A DNA stretch of 7,402 bases from an uncultured Desulfobacterales bacterium. Lineage in GTDB: Bacteria > Desulfobacterota > Desulfobacteria > Desulfobacterales > JAFDCJ01. Location: positions 1-7,402 of the forward strand of contig CALZJV010000377.1 in NCBI GenBank assembly GCA_945787595.1, written 5' to 3'. Shown here piece after piece: positions 712-7,402 of this stretch. The translations under genes were made by a program, and so were the position numbers. The notes beneath the pieces were generated by a model. It ran no database searches. It was not told where the DNA came from and saw nothing but the letters and a program-made list of their open reading frames with translations. The first letter of the stretch is position 1. Each line of letters opens with the position of its first letter.

Positions 712-1604
712 TTAGGCAAGCTTTTTCTCGTACCACTCGGTACGAGAACTTACTTTAAACCCCACAGATTCGTACAGGCCCATCGCCACCTGTTCTTCGC
801 CATCGGCTGTTAGCTCGACGAGTGTGACACCTTTGCTTTTAAGATACGACAATCCTGCCAGCAGAACGTTGCGACCGATCCCCCTCTTGCGGAAATCAGG
901 ATCTACCCCCAGCATGTGGATCTCGCCTTTCATCTCGCCTGCCTCCAGGTTCTCTTCAATCATAATTCGTGTCCAACAATAGCCGATGGGATGATTGTTC
1001 AGGTAGGCCATAATTATGTTTTCCGGAGAGCAGCTGCTTAAGTTGATACGATACGCAATTTCATCGGGGGTATTGGAATTGAAGCCCCAGGCATCGGCAA
1101 AAGCACGGTTTTGGATATAAGTTAATTTATCTGCTTCATTGTGTTCCAGACCGCGGATAATATATCCACTCGGCTCGACATCCGGCAATTGGATCTTCTT
1201 GATGTCCAACTTCAACTCATGAAAGTGGCGGATATATTTAAAGTCCAGGCGTGAGGCGAGGTTCCTGGCCGGCAGGTTGATTTCCGGAATGTAGACTTGT
1301 ACCGAATCAATGCTATTGCGGCACCTTTTTTCCGGTGCAAGGGATGGATCATGCAATCCAGTATCGCGCGATGTATCGCCTGCTCTAAAAAAACACCGGC
1401 ATAGCCGATGATGCTGCCGCCATGCTCTGCAATAAACAGGTCATTTTCCGGGTCAAAACTTGGATGCTCCAGATCTTCTGCCAAACGCTGCTTCGAGACA
1501 GAGCGTACCGATCGATTAAGCTTGTTTGCCTCCCTATGCAATTCAACATAGTTTTCAAAGTCACTGGGACGATAGTTTCTAATTTTGAAATAATTTTTTC
1601 TCAT
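712..1604 (-). pseudogene. Tandem GNAT acetyltransferase, frame-disrupted
   Basis: Two overlapping minus-strand frames together make one protein with two GNAT domains, an architecture also seen in mycothiol synthase-like enzymes. The first frame runs from the ATG at 1604 (MRKNYFKIRNYRPSDFENYV) to the acetyl-CoA-binding motif HPLHRKKGAAIALIR, near 1302. The protein then continues in the -1 frame from about 1302 (VQVYIPEINLPARNLASRL) through the end of domain 1. Domain 2 follows, with motif MLGVDPDFRKRGIGRNVLL and the C-terminal GLYESVGFKV, and ends at TAA 712-714. Compared with domain 2, about 13 residues are missing between motif A and the following strand, so a deletion of roughly 40 bases explains the frame change better than a single-base error. 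An A6 run lies close by (1326-1331). Proteins of this class transfer acyl groups to small amines; the substrate is unknown. The extended ATG at 1751 adds 49 residues that do not look like GNAT. No strong ribosome-binding site precedes 1604. Confidence 0.72.
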
Positions 1605-1754
1605 TGTATCGCAGCCAAGCAGCAGACAGATCTGTAAAGAGGTATAGCGTGACGTGTGATGAAAGTAGCTGAAACGCTGATTTTGGCAATTAGATAGATT
1701 TGTGAAGCCGTGTCTGATCAAACCTGCACCTGCAGATATTAACTGCCGCACAAA

Positions 1755-2396
1755 CTAAGCCGAGGACCAAAGCACATCTCCGCAAAGATTGGGGTCATGG
1801 TCTCTGGCAGAGAAAGCCTCAAAAGCCTGCTTCTCTTTTTTTAATATGGTGGAGTTTCCGTGACCGGGATAAATCCGGGTGTCTTCAGGCAGAACAAAAA
1901 TTTTGCTGGCGAGGGATTCCACGATGCGTGTAAAGTCGGTGGGTGATCCGGTTTTTCCCGGTCCATCCGGGAATATGGTGTCGCCTGCTATCAGATAGTT
2001 TCCTGTCAGGAAGCATAGGCTGCCCGGAGTGTGCCCCGGGGTATGTAATACCGTTAAATGAATATCTCCGCAGGAGATTACATCACCGTCATTTATCAGC
2101 ATGTCCGGGTTCAGCGGCAAACCGCCGGCATCGTCGCTGTGCGCGGCAATCGGAATATTCAAGGCGGACTTCACTTCAGCAAGAGCGCCGGTGTGGTCCA
2201 TGTGATTATGGGTCATCAGAATGTATTCGGGATCGGTTCCTTTCAGCTGCGTCAATATTTTGCCTGCTTCCCCCGGTGCATCCACCAGCACGCTTGCGCC
2301 GGTGTTCCGGCAAATCAGGAAATAGGCATTGGTGCCGAAGGGCCCCAATTCAAGTTTTTCAATCCGGATGCTGTCATCTTTCACTACGTTTACCAT
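1755..2396 (-). CDS. Metallo-beta-lactamase-fold hydrolase (glyoxalase II-like)
   Basis: This 213-residue protein has the full metal-binding signature of the metallo-beta-lactamase superfamily. It has H63-x-H65-x-D67-H68 in THNHMDHTG, H122 in TPGHTPGS, D139 in AGDTIF and H179 in YPGHG. The N-terminal GPFGTNAYFL strand and the length of just over 200 residues fit the short glyoxalase II-like (hydroxyacylglutathione hydrolase-related) cytosolic hydrolases, which usually bind two zinc or iron ions and cleave thioesters or related bonds. It lacks the extra C-terminal domain of classical glyoxalase II, so the substrate cannot be named. The ATG at 2396 is preceded by a good Shine-Dalgarno sequence. 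The broken GNAT gene lies 150 bases downstream on the same strand and may have been co-transcribed. The gene is divergent from the Grx-TrxR operon. Confidence 0.9.
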   Translation of the reverse strand: MVNVVKDDSIRIEKLELGPFGTNAYFLICRNTGASVLVDAPGEAGKILTQLKGTDPEYILMTHNHMDHTGALAEVKSALNIPIAAHSDDAGGLPLNPDMLINDGDVISCGDIHLTVLHTPGHTPGSLCFLTGNYLIAGDTIFPDGPGKTGSPTDFTRIVESLASKIFVLPEDTRIYPGHGNSTILKKEKQAFEAFSARDHDPNLCGDVLWSSA

Positions 2397-2877: not shown

Positions 2878-4119
2878 ATGTCAAAAGCAGATATTACCGT
2901 TTACGGAGCCCATTGGTGCCCTGATTGCCGACGCAGCAAGCAATTTTTAGGTGAACATCAGATCCCTTACAATTGGGTGGATATCGAGGAGGACTCAAAA
3001 GCTGAACAGTTCGTCATCGAAAAAAACGACGGCAAACGAATAATTCCCACCATCGTTTTTTCTGATCAAACCTTCCTGGTAGAACCAACCAACGCCGAAT
3101 TAGCGGCAAAGCTTGGATTGCGAACCAAAGCCAGCCGAAGCCATTACGATCTGATTGTCTTGGGAGGGGGCCCTGCCGGCTTGACCGCCGCCCTGTATAC
3201 TGCTCGCGAAGCCATCGATACGCTCGTCATTGAACGAGCTGCATTTGGCGGTCAGGCAGCCGGCACTGAAAAACTGGACAACATGCCCGGATTTCCTGAA
3301 GGGGTGACCGGCATTGAATTCTCTCAGCGTTTGCGCCGGCAGACTGAGCGTTTTGGCGCAGAGCTTCTGCAGGCCCAAGAGATTGCCGGCATCTACCAGC
3401 ATGATAACTATCATTGTGTTCAAACCAATGACGGCAGCGAATACAGTGCCAACGCCTTGCTGATTACCACAGGCAGCCGTTACAAACGCTTAAATGTCAA
3501 GGGTGAGACGGATTATTTGGGTGCAGGTGTCCATTTTTGTGCCACTTGCGACGGCCCCTTTTACAAAGGCAAGCGTGTTGCTGTCATCGGCGGAGGCAAC
3601 AGCGCAACCGAAGAAAGCCTGCTGCTGACCAAATTTGCCGCTCAGGTGACTATTTTGGTTCGACGCGGCAAGTTCACTGCTTCTGCAGTCATTCAAGAGA
3701 AAGTGCTGTCACATCCTATGATAGATGTTCGCTGGTTTACTGAAGTTAAAGAATTTATCGGCAAAGATTCAAAATTAACCCAACTGAGGGTCTATAACAA
3801 TCAGTCGGATACCGAAGAGATTCTTAAAATGGATGGGACTTTCATTTTCATCGGCCTCGTCCCCAATACGAGATTTTTTGAAACAAGCAATATTTTATTG
3901 GATCGTTGGGGATTTGTTGTCACCGGTCATGCTTTATTGCATGGGGATCACCGGCCGATTGGCTTCGAGCACCGCGATCCGCTGTTGCTGGAAACCAGTG
4001 TCCCCGGCGTCTTCGCTGCCGGAGACGTCCGGGATACGAGCACCAAACAGGTTGTCAGCGCCGCCGGAGAAGGGAGCACTGCAGCACTCATGGTCCGCGA
4101 ATATTTAAAAGGTGTTTGA
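2878..4119 (+). CDS. Glutaredoxin-thioredoxin reductase fusion protein
   Basis: The protein has 413 residues. Residues 1-82 form a glutaredoxin/mycoredoxin-like domain with redox motif C14-P-D-C17 in AHWCPDCRRSKQFL and the cis-proline motif IIPTIVF (P57). Residues 89-413 are a trxB-like thioredoxin reductase: FAD-binding GGGPAG (96-101), active-site C221-A-T-C224-D, NADPH-binding GGGNSA (238-243) and the second FAD motif FAAGDVRD (379-386). A thioredoxin reductase passes electrons from NADPH through FAD and its CATC disulfide to a thioredoxin-type partner; here the attached glutaredoxin is the likely partner (inference). An extra loop of about 17 residues (LHGDHRPIGFEHRDPLL) precedes the ETSVPGVFAAGD motif. 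The ATG at 2878 begins directly at the glutaredoxin fold; its ribosome-binding site is weak. The gene heads a probable operon with the HAD and S51 genes. Confidence 0.92.
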   Translation: MSKADITVYGAHWCPDCRRSKQFLGEHQIPYNWVDIEEDSKAEQFVIEKNDGKRIIPTIVFSDQTFLVEPTNAELAAKLGLRTKASRSHYDLIVLGGGPAGLTAALYTAREAIDTLVIERAAFGGQAAGTEKLDNMPGFPEGVTGIEFSQRLRRQTERFGAELLQAQEIAGIYQHDNYHCVQTNDGSEYSANALLITTGSRYKRLNVKGETDYLGAGVHFCATCDGPFYKGKRVAVIGGGNSATEESLLLTKFAAQVTILVRRGKFTASAVIQEKVLSHPMIDVRWFTEVKEFIGKDSKLTQLRVYNNQSDTEEILKMDGTFIFIGLVPNTRFFETSNILLDRWGFVVTGHALLHGDHRPIGFEHRDPLLLETSVPGVFAAGDVRDTSTKQVVSAAGEGSTAALMVREYLKGV

Positions 4120-4127
4120 GGAAAAAA

Positions 4128-4154
4128 ATGGCTGAAAGGATTCCGCTTGATTAA
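4128..4154 (+). other. Possible 8-codon leader ORF before the HAD gene
   Basis: GAGGA (4118-4122), overlapping the TrxR stop codon, is well placed for an ATG at 4128. That ATG reads only MAERIPLD before TAA at 4152-4154. The small frame overlaps the TTG start of the HAD gene by a few bases, in another frame, so its translation could carry ribosomes onto the weak TTG start. It could also be chance. Confidence 0.3.
4136..4140 (+). promoter_or_regulatory. Ribosome-binding site that supports the TTG start of the HAD gene
   Basis: AAGGA lies six bases before TTG 4147-4149. There is no in-frame ATG between the TrxR stop at 4117-4119 and this TTG, so this site decides the start. Confidence 0.55.
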
Positions 4155-4752
4155 AGCAGTGATTTTCGATTTCGGCCGGGTAATCTCCGCTCAAAAACCG
4201 GTCTCCCTGTTTCGAGCTTATGAGAAAGCTCTGAGGCTGGAGCCCGACACGATCAACCAAATTATGTTCGACAGTCAGGCTTGGCAGGATGCTTTGGTCG
4301 GCCGGATATCGACAAAAGAATTCTGGCATACGATCGGACCCGAGCTAAGGCTTGAATCGCACGAAAAAATTGACGAATTTCGCAAGCATTACCACGCCGA
4401 TGAATCGATCGACAGGGGTGTTTTGAGTTTAATCCGGCAGCTACATCACCGGTATAAACTGGCTATTCTGTCCAACTCTCCGCCGGGTTTGGCCGAATGG
4501 TTGTCTGACTGGGGAATCTTAGACTTCTTTGATGTGGTATTTTGCTCAGGTGATGAAGGCCTGGTTAAGCCAGATCCTGCAGTATACCATTCGACCCTTA
4601 ACCGCCTGGGAATCTTGCCTAAAGAAGCTGTATTTATCGACGACACCATCGGTCATGTCAAAGCTGCCCAATCACTGGGCATACATGGCATCAGGTTTAC
4701 AAATGCAGCGCGGTTGGAGCTGGAACTCGACCGTTTGTTGGCGCTGGAGTAA
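4147..4752 (+). CDS. HAD-superfamily hydrolase
   Basis: This 201-residue protein carries the four haloacid dehalogenase-superfamily motifs. Motif I has nucleophile D8 in MIKAVIFDFGRVIS, motif II is S109 in AILSNS, motif III is K141 in LVKPDP, and motif IV is D165-D166 in VFIDD. The helical cap between motifs I and II (about residues 15-90) places it with the subfamily I, YihX-like or haloacid dehalogenase-like phosphatases. The second position of the usual DxD is glycine (G10), as in many IFDFGGV-type members, so classical phosphomonoesterase activity is not certain. The TTG start is chosen because family proteins begin exactly at this strand and no ATG is available in frame. The gene starts 27 bases after the TrxR gene and ends 32 bases before the S51 gene, so co-transcription is likely. 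The substrate is unknown. Confidence 0.88.
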   Translation: MIKAVIFDFGRVISAQKPVSLFRAYEKALRLEPDTINQIMFDSQAWQDALVGRISTKEFWHTIGPELRLESHEKIDEFRKHYHADESIDRGVLSLIRQLHHRYKLAILSNSPPGLAEWLSDWGILDFFDVVFCSGDEGLVKPDPAVYHSTLNRLGILPKEAVFIDDTIGHVKAAQSLGIHGIRFTNAARLELELDRLLALE

Positions 4753-4784: not shown

Positions 4785-5492
4785 ATGGGCTATCTATTAT
4801 TGGAAGGAGGTGCTGAATTCGGCGGTCGGATGGCAGATCCCGACAAGCAGGCACTGACTCTTGCAGGCGGACCCGCGGTGCCGATAAAAATCATCCCTGC
4901 GGCCGCGGCACCGGATAATAATCACCAACGAGCCGGACAGAATGGTGTCCGCTGGTTTCATCACTTGGGAGCAACCAATGTTTCGGTTTTGCCTCTGATC
5001 GACAGCGCATCCGCCGATGATCCCGAGGTCGCGGAGACCCTGACAAAATCAAAATTTATCTATCTTTTAGGAGGGTTTCCCCGGTACCTGGCTCAAATTT
5101 TGAACCACAGCCGCAGCTGGCAGGCGATGTTGACCGCCTATCTGTCAGGTGCGGTGATTGCCGGCAGCAGTGCGGGTGCGATGGTGCTCTGCGAATTCTA
5201 TTTCGATCCGATTTCTTCTCAGATAGCTAAAGGACTGAACCTGGTGGAGCGCATCTGTGTTTTACCGCATCATAATTCATTTGGTAAAGACTGGACCCCT
5301 CTCCTGAAAAATCAACTCCCAGACATTATTCTGTTCGGCATTGATGAGGAAACCGGTGCGCTCTATGATGCCTCGCAAGATAATTGGCGGGTTTATGGAA
5401 AAGGCAACATCACGCTGTATCATAGCGACCATGTCGATAAATTCGGGGCAGGACAGGAATTTATCCTGAAGAATGCGGTCAGACAATTTTAA
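4785..5492 (+). CDS. Cyanophycinase-like peptidase S51 family protein
   Basis: This 235-residue protein has the S51 (cyanophycinase/dipeptidase E) arrangement on a class I glutamine-amidotransferase-like fold. It opens with the strand YLLLEGGAEFGG and has YLLGGFPR before the nucleophile elbow AGSSAGAMVL (S129 as nucleophile). The histidine region LPHHNSFG (H162/H163) and GIDEETGALYD (E188) complete the likely triad. Family members hydrolyse beta-aspartyl-arginine bonds of cyanophycin or Asp-X dipeptides. No cyanophycin synthetase gene lies in this window, so the substrate is open. The length is slightly short compared with cyanophycinases (about 270) and close to dipeptidase E (about 230). 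The ATG at 4785 has only a weak, distant AAGG upstream, which fits coupling to the HAD gene. The next gene encodes a diverged relative of this protein. Confidence 0.85.
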   Translation: MGYLLLEGGAEFGGRMADPDKQALTLAGGPAVPIKIIPAAAAPDNNHQRAGQNGVRWFHHLGATNVSVLPLIDSASADDPEVAETLTKSKFIYLLGGFPRYLAQILNHSRSWQAMLTAYLSGAVIAGSSAGAMVLCEFYFDPISSQIAKGLNLVERICVLPHHNSFGKDWTPLLKNQLPDIILFGIDEETGALYDASQDNWRVYGKGNITLYHSDHVDKFGAGQEFILKNAVRQF

Positions 5493-5669: not shown

Positions 5670-6923
5670 ATGGTGTCTAAAAAGGGAAAAATCGTTCTGA
5701 TGGGGTCTGGGGAGCTGACGGCTACAATGGTTAAGGTTCACAAAGGCCTGTTGGACCAATTGCCGGGATCTCCTCAAGCGGCCTTTCTGGACACACCGGC
5801 CGGTTTTCAGCTTAACGTGGATCAGATATCCAGCAAGGCCGTAGAATATTTTCGGGTGCATGTTCGGCAAACGATGTCTATATCCTCATTTAAATCCCAA
5901 GAGACAACCACAGATTTTGACGCCCGACAGGCGTTTCACATCTTGCGCAATTCCAACTATATTCTCATCGGACCGGGCAGCCCGACGTATGCGGTGCGTC
6001 AATTGAAAGAATCTCCAGTACCGGAAATTTTAACTCAATGTGTGGCAAACGGTGGATGCTTGGTTGCGGCCAGCGCCGCAGCTTTGACTGTCGGGTACTT
6101 GACCCTGCCGGTATATGAAATTTACAAAGTCGGTCATGACCTGCACTGGGTGGACGGCATGGACATTCTCGGACAATTTGGCTTTGATCTGGTAATAATT
6201 CCCCACTGGAACAATGCCGAAGGCGGCACTCATGATACGCGCTTTTGTTTCATGGGTGAACCGCGCTTTCGTAAGCTCGAATCCCTCATTCCGCAAGAGG
6301 TGCCTGTACTTGGATTGGATGAGCATACGGCCTGCATTCTGGATTTTGAAAATAACCAGGCAGAGGTCAAGGGAATCGGTCGGGTCACACTGCGGACTTC
6401 GGACAGAGAAATATATTTCAAATCCGGTGATCGTTTACCTTTGGATGTTTTACGTGGGAGGGGCAACAATTCCGGCTGGCGGCCTGATCCGGCCGAGACC
6501 CGAACGCCGCAAGAAGACTCCGCCTGCGCACCAGACTCATTTTGGGATAAAATTCATTCACTTGAGGATAGATTTCATAAGGGTATAGAGGGTCATGACC
6601 CCAGAGCATCAACCAATGCCCTGCTGGAACTGGACCGCACCATCTGGCAAGGCCAGCAGGATCTGGCGAGTGAAGAGAATATTAGCCAGGCCCGGGATAC
6701 GCTCCGTGATCTCATTGTCCTGACGGGAAACGAGCTGTCCTCGTCTCCTGGAAACCAGACCGAGTGTCTGGCGCCACTGATAGAGGCATTACTTGAATTG
6801 CGACAAAACTTTAGGGCAAATAAGCAGTGGGCCGAGGCCGACGCGATCCGCGATACGCTTCAATCGGTGAATATAACCGTGGAAGATGCCAAAAACGGTT
6901 CAAAGTGGCGCTTGGGAACGTGA
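5670..6923 (+). CDS. S51-like amidotransferase-fold protein fused to a cysteinyl-tRNA synthetase C-terminal-like domain
   Basis: The 417 residues fall into two parts. Residues 6-262 are a second S51/class I GATase-like domain. It has the opening strand KIVLMGSGEL, YILIGPGSPTYA before the elbow, VAASAAAL (S135 at the nucleophile position, but AA instead of the usual AG after it), IIPHWNN (H179) and VLGLDEHTACILD (E218). A putative Ser-His-Glu triad is therefore kept. After a hydrophilic linker (about 263-288), residues 290-415 resemble the helical DALR plus tail region of cysteinyl-tRNA synthetase. This is clearest in LIEALLELRQNFRANKQ, WAEADAIRDTLQ and the terminal VEDAKNGSKWRL, which copies the synthetase pattern of an ADxIRDxL helix followed by a (V/L)EDxxxGxxW end. 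No HIGH or KMSKS catalytic core is present. Automated pipelines may mislabel such a protein as a tRNA synthetase. The function is unknown. A weak GGGA (5660-5663) precedes the ATG. Confidence 0.82.
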   Translation: MVSKKGKIVLMGSGELTATMVKVHKGLLDQLPGSPQAAFLDTPAGFQLNVDQISSKAVEYFRVHVRQTMSISSFKSQETTTDFDARQAFHILRNSNYILIGPGSPTYAVRQLKESPVPEILTQCVANGGCLVAASAAALTVGYLTLPVYEIYKVGHDLHWVDGMDILGQFGFDLVIIPHWNNAEGGTHDTRFCFMGEPRFRKLESLIPQEVPVLGLDEHTACILDFENNQAEVKGIGRVTLRTSDREIYFKSGDRLPLDVLRGRGNNSGWRPDPAETRTPQEDSACAPDSFWDKIHSLEDRFHKGIEGHDPRASTNALLELDRTIWQGQQDLASEENISQARDTLRDLIVLTGNELSSSPGNQTECLAPLIEALLELRQNFRANKQWAEADAIRDTLQSVNITVEDAKNGSKWRLGT

Positions 6924-6958
6924 AGGAAAGCTTATTGTATCCTAGTGTGAGCTGCTCA

Positions 6959-7043
6959 GGGTTCAACGTTCCGGGTTGAAAAAACCAATATAGTTCAAAT
7001 AATTGGTTGTAACCTTTGAACCTTGAACTCTGAACGTGGAACC
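6959..7043. repeat. Imperfect inverted repeat containing dispersed repeat copy 2
   Basis: The left arm (6959-6980) pairs with 7023-7043 in about 17 of 21 positions. A nested perfect pair AACCAAT (6983-6989)/ATTGGTT (7002-7008) lies inside. The right arm is built of degenerate TTGAAC-type units at 7-9-base spacing. Bases 6959-6983 are the inverse of 2486-2510 with one mismatch. The transcript could fold into a long hairpin between the S51-CysRS-tail gene and the next gene. There is no U-tract, so it is not a typical terminator. Confidence 0.7.
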
Positions 7044-7067
7044 GATCAATTTAATGATCAGCACGAC

Positions 7068-7075
7068 AGGAGAGG
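7068..7075 (+). promoter_or_regulatory. Ribosome-binding site of the final gene
   Basis: AGGAGAGG precedes the ATG at 7085 by 9-12 bases. It is the strongest ribosome-binding site in the right half and supports this start. Confidence 0.6.
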
Positions 7076-7084
7076 TTTTAGAGC

Positions 7085-7402
7085 ATGATTAATAATCCGC
7101 CGATATCGATTCTATATCTCAAAGAAGAGGAAGATGAGTCCTTAACGTCTTTTTTTTCTTATCTAGGATCCATGCCGCATATCCGACTTTCGCAGATACC
7201 ACAGCTGCCCGATGACCTGAATTCTTTTGATATTGTCATTACATCGGACACCCGGCATTCGGATAACATGATTGATCGTCTGACTCAGTTTGTTCAGACT
7301 GGCGGAGGATGGCAAACGTTTGTCAATTTGTCCGAGCATCCATTACCACAAATATTTGGTGTTCAGCAGGATCCGTTAGGGCCGGAAGCTGAATTGCGTA
7401 TA
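7085..7402 (+). CDS. Unidentified protein, N-terminal part; possible class I GATase-like fold
   Basis: The frame runs from ATG 7085 for 106 codons without a stop to the window edge, after a strong ribosome-binding site. The start reads MINNPPISILYLKEEEDES, followed by LNSFDIVITSDT (a hydrophobic strand ending at an acidic residue), then LTQFVQTGGGWQTFVNLSEHPLPQIFG and GPEAELRI. A strand of the xxYDxVI type followed by a helix ending in FVxxGGGW is typical of the ThuA or beta-galactosidase-trimerisation type of amidotransferase-like domain, which lacks enzymatic activity in several families. This is a fold-level guess only, and the catalytic residues, if any, would lie beyond the window. It would be the third amidotransferase-like protein in a row. 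The family is not recognised. Confidence 0.7.
   Translation, partial: MINNPPISILYLKEEEDESLTSFFSYLGSMPHIRLSQIPQLPDDLNSFDIVITSDTRHSDNMIDRLTQFVQTGGGWQTFVNLSEHPLPQIFGVQQDPLGPEAELRI

Follow-up and report, generated by a model that had tools for sequence, protein, structure and literature searches.

The window (the whole 7,402-nt stretch of DNA analysed) contains an open reading frame whose product joins a peptidase fold to part of a cysteinyl-tRNA synthetase (CysRS), which raises the question of what such a protein does. The gene, at 5670..6923 on the + strand, encodes 417 aa from an ATG start. The original prediction had placed an S51 peptidase-like domain at residues 1-262 and a CysRS tail at residues 290-415, with the synthetase core absent, and this layout, an S51-fold domain followed by the RNA-binding half of CysRS, was confirmed. 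A chance fusion or an assembly error was ruled out by 7,997 protein matches at E ≤ 1e-3 with the fusion as query, those among the 120 listed spanning 83-100% of its length, and by the recurrence of this layout in Desulfobacterota, in Bacillota and in one member of the Streptomycetaceae. The absent core, the intact frame and the strong conservation likewise ruled out a CysRS fragment or pseudogene. We also rejected a known anti-phage protein (no PADLOC match at E ≤ 0.01) and a T-box or other known RNA element (nothing in the window reached an Rfam gathering score), and no inverted repeat of at least 9 was found at 6900-7100 of the window.

Residues 1-262 (5670..6455, + strand) were found to have the S51 fold, and the Ser-His-acid triad was in register with S51 in the alignment to 6nqc. 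The Pfam score for PF03575 was 17.2 bits, under the gathering score of 23.9, and 47 of the 87 members of alignment A2 matched PF03575 at E ≤ 0.01. The triad proposed earlier, consisting of S135 (putative nucleophile, codon 6072..6074), H179 (putative triad histidine, codon 6204..6206) and E218 (putative triad acid, codon 6321..6323; all + strand), proved invariant when homologues were surveyed (320/320 aligned fusion proteins, a set made of the best-listed hits of two queries plus the loci, in which locus/protein duplicates are likely and from which 8 of 328 BLAST hits were left out by length and span). In PepE, the triad is Ser120, His157 and Glu192, and in MccG the third residue is Asp, according to the available part of PMC9239234. 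The fusion has the same fold as the S51 peptidases (peptidase E, cyanophycinase, MccG) and the Ser-His-Glu triad of PepE, but differs from them in its weak family score, its CysRS-derived second half and a motif of its own, PHWNNAEGGxHDTRFC, which is invariant in all 17 rows of alignment A1 and partly varied on the Streptomyces side.

The second half comprises a CysRS-like helical bundle at residues about 288-366 (6531..6767, + strand) and a CysS_C anticodon-binding mini-domain at residues 367-414 (6768..6911, + strand). The bundle was recognized from helices predicted in the structure model, from a match to 1u0b_B spanning residues 292-416, and from a profile that matches CysRS chains from its position 297 onwards. 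The mini-domain matched PF23493 (CysS_C) with an E value of 2.4e-8 and 34.4 bits, over the gathering score of 23, and 69 of the 87 members of alignment A2 gave CysS_C matches at E ≤ 0.01. The class I catalytic domain PF01406 had no match in the fusion at E ≤ 1 in Pfam, and the MshC model TIGR03447 had none at E ≤ 1. The fusion shares with CysRS the helical bundle and CysS_C (residues 332-461 of E. coli CysRS), including the residues that contact G34, and lacks the class I catalytic domain that CysRS has. Some database names already annotate this tail, reading CysS/YqeB C-terminal domain-containing protein, and no function was seen there.

In E. coli CysRS, Arg427 and Asp436 contact G34 of the tRNA by hydrogen bonds and Trp432 by stacking, while a water network at G34 involves Asp436 and Arg423, according to the available part of PMC12684709. 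The alignment to 1li5 paired R378, R382, W387 and D391 of the fusion (6801..6842, + strand) with R423, R427, W432 and D436 of E. coli CysRS. R378 and D391 were each kept in 318 of 319 relatives (one gap) and R382 in 317 (one K, one gap), and position 387 was aromatic (W, F or Y) in 318 (one gap). R378, D391 and R382 were among the five least variable of the 48 CysS_C columns, position 387 ranked fourteenth, and the four positions jointly gave a permutation p of 0.0017 for low variability. Equally conserved columns occur elsewhere in the tail (R394, D406, A390 and W413), and at some of these the conservation probably serves structure. The spaced tail motif was present in 318 of 320 fusion proteins versus 2 of 864 other neighbour ORFs, and, when 20 regions surrounding hits to the MshC model in carrier genomes were read, in 15; among the five lacking it are masked or broken pieces and a tail that has E where D is expected. 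Judged by its sequence, the fusion tail looks like a reader of the tRNA-Cys anticodon. Among the functions suggested earlier, action on an aminoacyl-tRNA or a cysteinyl compound would fit best because the G34-contacting residues are kept, and a bare dimerisation module would fit worse. Literature searches, with most subscription papers outside their reach, found no paper on cyanophycinase or peptidase S51 with cysteinyl-tRNA synthetase; for cyanophycinase with aminoacyl-tRNA, no such fusion appeared by title and abstract start.

The most informative fact is the mycothiol-like gene set around the fusion, which the original prediction had missed. Directly upstream lies a second, stand-alone S51 protein (4785..5492, + strand; PF03575 E value 1e-12, above the gathering score), which shares 21% identity with the fusion's own S51 domain. 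It is preceded by a HAD-family phosphatase (4147..4752, + strand; PF00702 E value 6e-17, HAD-IA family), a candidate for the phosphatase step of a thiol pathway, and by a mycoredoxin-like glutaredoxin fused to a thioredoxin reductase (2878..4119, + strand; TIGR02200, 75 bits, cut-off 89.5; TIGR01292, 309 bits, cut-off 343), a likely disulfide reductase for the thiol. Farther upstream, on the - strand, are a glyoxalase II-like hydrolase of the metallo-beta-lactamase fold (1755..2396; PF00753 E value 2e-22; TIGR03413, 90 bits, cut-off 201) and an MshD-like double GNAT (712..1751; TIGR03448, 21 and 74 bits for its two pieces). The latter is split over overlapping ORFs 1212-1751 and 712-1356, either by a frameshift or by an assembly error; its intact relative in locus L008 is a single 310-aa ORF scoring 106 bits, under the cut-off of 163. 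Downstream, a Gfo/Idh/MocA-type oxidoreductase gene begins (7085..7402, + strand) and is truncated by the window end; its product is extended at the N-terminus, and a whole relative is present in locus L001 (1510-3090); the piece itself had no Pfam match.

A genome scan gave 80 loci from 262 confirmed hits; four of the 80 loci (L067, L069, L071 and L076) were dropped for want of a usable main ORF. The loci closest to the window, L001 and L002, are Desulfobacterales by title, and L002 has the gene order reductase, HAD, second S51, fusion, both oxidoreductases, GNAT and MshA. Relatives of the second S51 protein lay upstream of the fusion in 14 of the 41 loci with at least 7 kb upstream. On the downstream side, the 43 loci with at least 7.9 kb held an MshA-like GT4 glycosyltransferase in 36, a FemAB-like GNAT (PF13480) in 28, and a PIG-L deacetylase in 28. 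One Gfo/Idh oxidoreductase was present in 24 of these loci and the other in 25, while Ino1 occurred in 12, the glyoxalase II-like protein in 9 and a histidine phosphatase in 11. In the Nitrospirota-type loci (L043, L048, L049, L059, L062, L063 and L066), the fusion was accompanied by GNAT and MshA in all seven and by PIG-L in five. Fusion and mycothiol-like gene set go together in Desulfobacterota, Nitrospirota and Bacillota.

These loci share MshA-like, PIG-L, Ino1-like, MshD-like and mycoredoxin-like genes with actinobacterial mycothiol biosynthesis. They differ from it in scoring below the curated cut-offs, in having no MshC over cut-off, and in adding Gfo/Idh oxidoreductases and a FemAB-like GNAT, with Ino1 not in every carrier. 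The MshA model TIGR03449 gave 294 bits in L001, and its best scores were 380 bits among 148 genomes and 367 bits among 25 genomes, none over the cut-off of 462.5. The Ino1 model TIGR03450 gave 415 bits in L023 (cut-off 638); none of the 148 genomes had a hit over the cut-off, and 68 of them had one at E ≤ 1e-20. The MshD model TIGR03448 also stayed under its cut-off in the loci. For the PIG-L protein the top-scoring model was BshB1 (100 bits), ahead of MshB (45 bits), and BshC of bacillithiol synthesis was found in one of the 148 genomes, the non-carrier G025. A thiol-gene survey found mshA-D only in Actinobacteria, as stated in the available part of PMC6282198, and searches for mycothiol in Deltaproteobacteria or for MshC in Desulfo- lineages returned no such pathway by title or abstract start. 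We class the finding as a mycothiol-like pathway with an unusual enzyme.

In mycothiol users, the amide between cysteine and the amino sugar is cut by Mca. An amidase of this kind is one possible role for the fusion: the S51 domain would cut this amide in the thiol itself or in S-conjugates of the thiol, and the CysRS tail would be a recruited docking part. The S51 fold and the intact hydrolase triad are consistent with it, as are neighbours suited to detoxification, among them the mycoredoxin-like gene and the one for the glyoxalase II-like protein. We consider it unlikely, however, as it leaves the kept G34-contacting residues unexplained and most carriers would then be without a candidate for cysteine addition. 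Even if the protein were only a hydrolase, an anticodon-contacting CysRS tail kept outside a synthetase would be unusual.

Our main reading, to which we give a probability of roughly 0.4, is that the fusion is the cysteine-adding enzyme of the mycothiol-like pathway, which stands in for MshC and uses the S51 serine to transfer cysteine onto an amino sugar, with Cys-tRNA(Cys) as the donor. The core genes would then map to MshA, MshB, MshC and MshD, with the fusion in the place of MshC. As no ATP-using domain was found in the fusion by Pfam, a ligase role would need an activated donor, and Cys-tRNA(Cys) is what the second half would bind. The two domains, the conservation of the triad and of the G34-contacting residues, and the linkage and co-occurrence with the pathway genes are observations; from them we infer tRNA binding, an acyl-enzyme, the acceptor and the product as follows. 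The CysRS-derived half would grip charged tRNA-Cys by its anticodon, so that the acceptor end could reach the S51 active site, where S135 would attack the aminoacyl ester to form a cysteinyl-enzyme. The amine of the amino sugar, which would probably be of the GlcN-inositol type and come from the MshA-like transferase and the PIG-L deacetylase, would then take the cysteine off the enzyme, and a GNAT would acylate the cysteinyl-amino sugar. Cyclodipeptide synthases use aminoacyl-tRNA through a serine. The donor proposed here is of the type used by tRNA-dependent aminoacyl transferases (cyclodipeptide synthases and the FemX type; partly from the available text of PMC2922099), which have other folds, HUP/Rossmann and GNAT. 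The available text of that source covers MshC and tRNA-linked ligases and contains none of the terms peptidase, cyanophycin and anticodon.

In broader terms, an S51 fold may have been turned, with a captured CysRS half, into a tRNA-dependent amide-forming cysteinyl transferase that serves a mycothiol-like thiol in lineages not known for one, a proposal that we regard as tentative and at less than even odds. If true, a mycothiol-like redox buffer would be present in mostly anaerobic lineages (sulfate-reducer relatives, Nitrospirota and Syntrophomonadaceae, by record titles), and a hydrolase fold would be added to those known to build small molecules from charged tRNA. Counting against a transferase, S51 enzymes with established activity are hydrolases, and we know of no S51 transferase.

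Co-occurrence was analysed in 148 genomes sampled from a single phylum, the one to which G003, a genome with a Desulfobacterales locus, belongs; MshA-like genes were taken at E ≤ 1e-50. The fusion was found in 18 genomes and an MshA-like gene in 21; 15 had both, 3 the fusion only, 6 MshA only and 124 neither, so that an MshA-like gene was present in 15 of 18 carriers versus 6 of 130 non-carriers. Fisher's test gave p = 3e-13 for the full sample. Leaving out the centre genome changed p to 2e-12, and leaving out the six genomes that have both genes on one contig changed it to 2e-8; with G137 removed as well, because its fusion and MshA contigs break off within one gene set and are probably adjacent, p was 1.4e-7. 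All these values are too small, since the genomes are related and the tests ignore kinship. Ino1 was present in 13 of 18 carriers versus 55 of 130 other genomes (p = 0.02), and 4 of the 15 carriers that also have MshA lack it. As Ino1 is less tightly tied to the fusion, the inositol part of the acceptor and product is uncertain. In a Nitrospirota sample of 118 genomes, both the fusion and MshA were confined to the centre genome, adding no independent case.

Several genomes depart from this pattern and count against a transferase. No MshA-like gene was detected in the carriers G034, G083, G111, G001, G277 and G280; in G111 the fusion gene itself is incomplete, just a piece being present, and in G001 the second oxidoreductase gene ends in a gap of 100 bases. 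Conversely, an MshA-like gene without the fusion was found in G027, G042, G064, G074 and G462 and, weakly, in G038 and G102. The six MshA-only genomes of the 148 include the two weak hits (200 bits in G038 and 176 bits in G102), and no GNAT neighbour was found in the MshA region of G102.

In Bacillota, where four of the five carriers are Syntrophomonadaceae by title, no thiol gene was found in the available flank of the fusion genes. A GNAT-MshA pair was nevertheless present, on other contigs, in four of the five carriers, versus one of 198 other sampled genomes; among eight Bacillota MshA hits at 1e-50, a GNAT neighbour was found only in G276 and G462. That the GNAT adjoins MshA even where the fusion is absent or on another contig would suit a different division of labour, in which the FemAB-like GNAT adds cysteine from Cys-tRNA, with the fusion in an accessory role such as delivery, proofreading or recycling of this tRNA. 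Two of the three GNATs of the set scanned with Pfam gave a FemAB-like match, but this match is unspecific, the third GNAT (L116) lacked it, and a GNAT is also wanted for the MshD role, which makes this division of labour quite improbable.

The family extends to Streptomyces, where members were 33-38% identical to the window fusion and a Streptomyces member as query gave 7,477 matches, 120 of them listed; the actinobacterial group in the 320-row alignment includes unnamed metagenome proteins. The tail is worn on this side: of two members scanned, one passed CysS_C and the other had no match. The actinobacterial setting was read from plasmid records alone, with annotation on two of four, and in the Streptomycetaceae plasmid islands L081 and L082, genes for DUF4331, TPR, a nickel transporter and a class F sortase surround the S51-CysS_C relative. 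Streptomyces makes mycothiol with MshC. Because the relatives there lie amid unrelated genes in organisms that make mycothiol via MshC, the fusion relative does something else or something extra in Streptomyces, a further point against the transferase reading.

This spread outside thiol clusters, and the joining of the RNA-binding half of CysRS to a hydrolase fold, would also fit a deacylase of Cys-tRNA(Cys) or a trans-editing factor, which would strip tRNA-Cys that is mischarged or charged in excess, the thiol genes nearby reflecting cysteine supply. A deacylase gives no reason to expect the fusion and an MshA-like gene in one genome, least of all when they lie on different contigs, and appears decidedly unlikely. 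The copies on Streptomyces plasmid records would further suit an MccG-like resistance enzyme that destroys an aminoacyl-nucleotide inhibitor of CysRS, with the tail as bait or targeting part. S51 peptidases named MccG cut the toxic isoaspartyl-nucleotide of microcin C, that is, MccG acts on an aminoacyl-nucleotide, as described in the available part of PMC9239234. The linkage to thiol biosynthesis genes in three phyla argues against a resistance enzyme, which we judge very improbable indeed.

A cysteinyl transferase in place of MshC bears on the cysteine-adding step, for which mycothiol synthesis needs MshC (available part of PMC2922099). MshC (TIGR03447; 3c8z and 8hfm) performs the same step as is proposed for the fusion, also shares a part with CysRS and also occurs with MshA-, PIG-L- and GNAT-type genes. 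It keeps the catalytic core of CysRS without the CysS_C tail, and the fusion is its complement, with the tail and no core. The absence of the tail from MshC was deduced from its shorter chain (413-414 residues in the solved chains versus 461 in E. coli CysRS); a tail was also not seen in the alignment. No MshC hit over the TIGR03447 cut-off was found in 40 carriers (0/10, 0/18 among 24 genomes with one shared with the 10, and 0/13 among 14), whereas one of 14 control genomes, presumably Corynebacterium glutamicum, had one; this cut-off test is weak, because the MshA-, Ino1- and MshD-like proteins are also below theirs. More telling is that 11 of the 15 carriers with MshA in the 148-genome sample gave just one MshC-model hit at E ≤ 1e-40; since every genome needs a CysRS, that hit must be it. 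G088 had a second MshC-model hit, in an 800-aa frame, and G003 had no hit at E ≤ 1e-40, its genes being cut by masked stretches.

Against a transferase, the carriers G033 and G137 also have a stand-alone tail-less CysRS paralogue (L108, 6108-7586; L112, 6187-7437) for which the MshC model gives 375-377 bits, short of the cut-off. In G033 (L108), this paralogue is the next ORF upstream of MshA, and no GNAT or PIG-L was seen beside MshA. Desulfobacterales are described as having a CysRS that lacks the anticodon-binding domain and aminoacylates a SelC-like tRNA (available part of PMC9437257), so a tail-less CysRS in this group need not be MshC-like. In two non-carriers with an MshA-like gene, G027 and G064, a tail-less CysRS core is fused to a family 2 glycosyltransferase (L143, 1163-3388, + strand; L144, 1345-3531, - strand). 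Among genomes with an MshA-like gene, a tail-less CysRS paralogue was found in 2 of 15 that carry the fusion versus 2 of 4 that do not (the weak G038 and G102 left out), a difference that is not significant (p = 0.18) and that hints that MshC-like proteins and the fusion swap for each other. As a separate observation on CysRS, several carrier genomes (L085, L087, L093, L096 and L099) have frames of 771-793 aa with a cysteine synthase-like N-terminus followed by a CysRS with CysS_C tail, which from their sequence look like cysteine making and tRNA charging in one chain.
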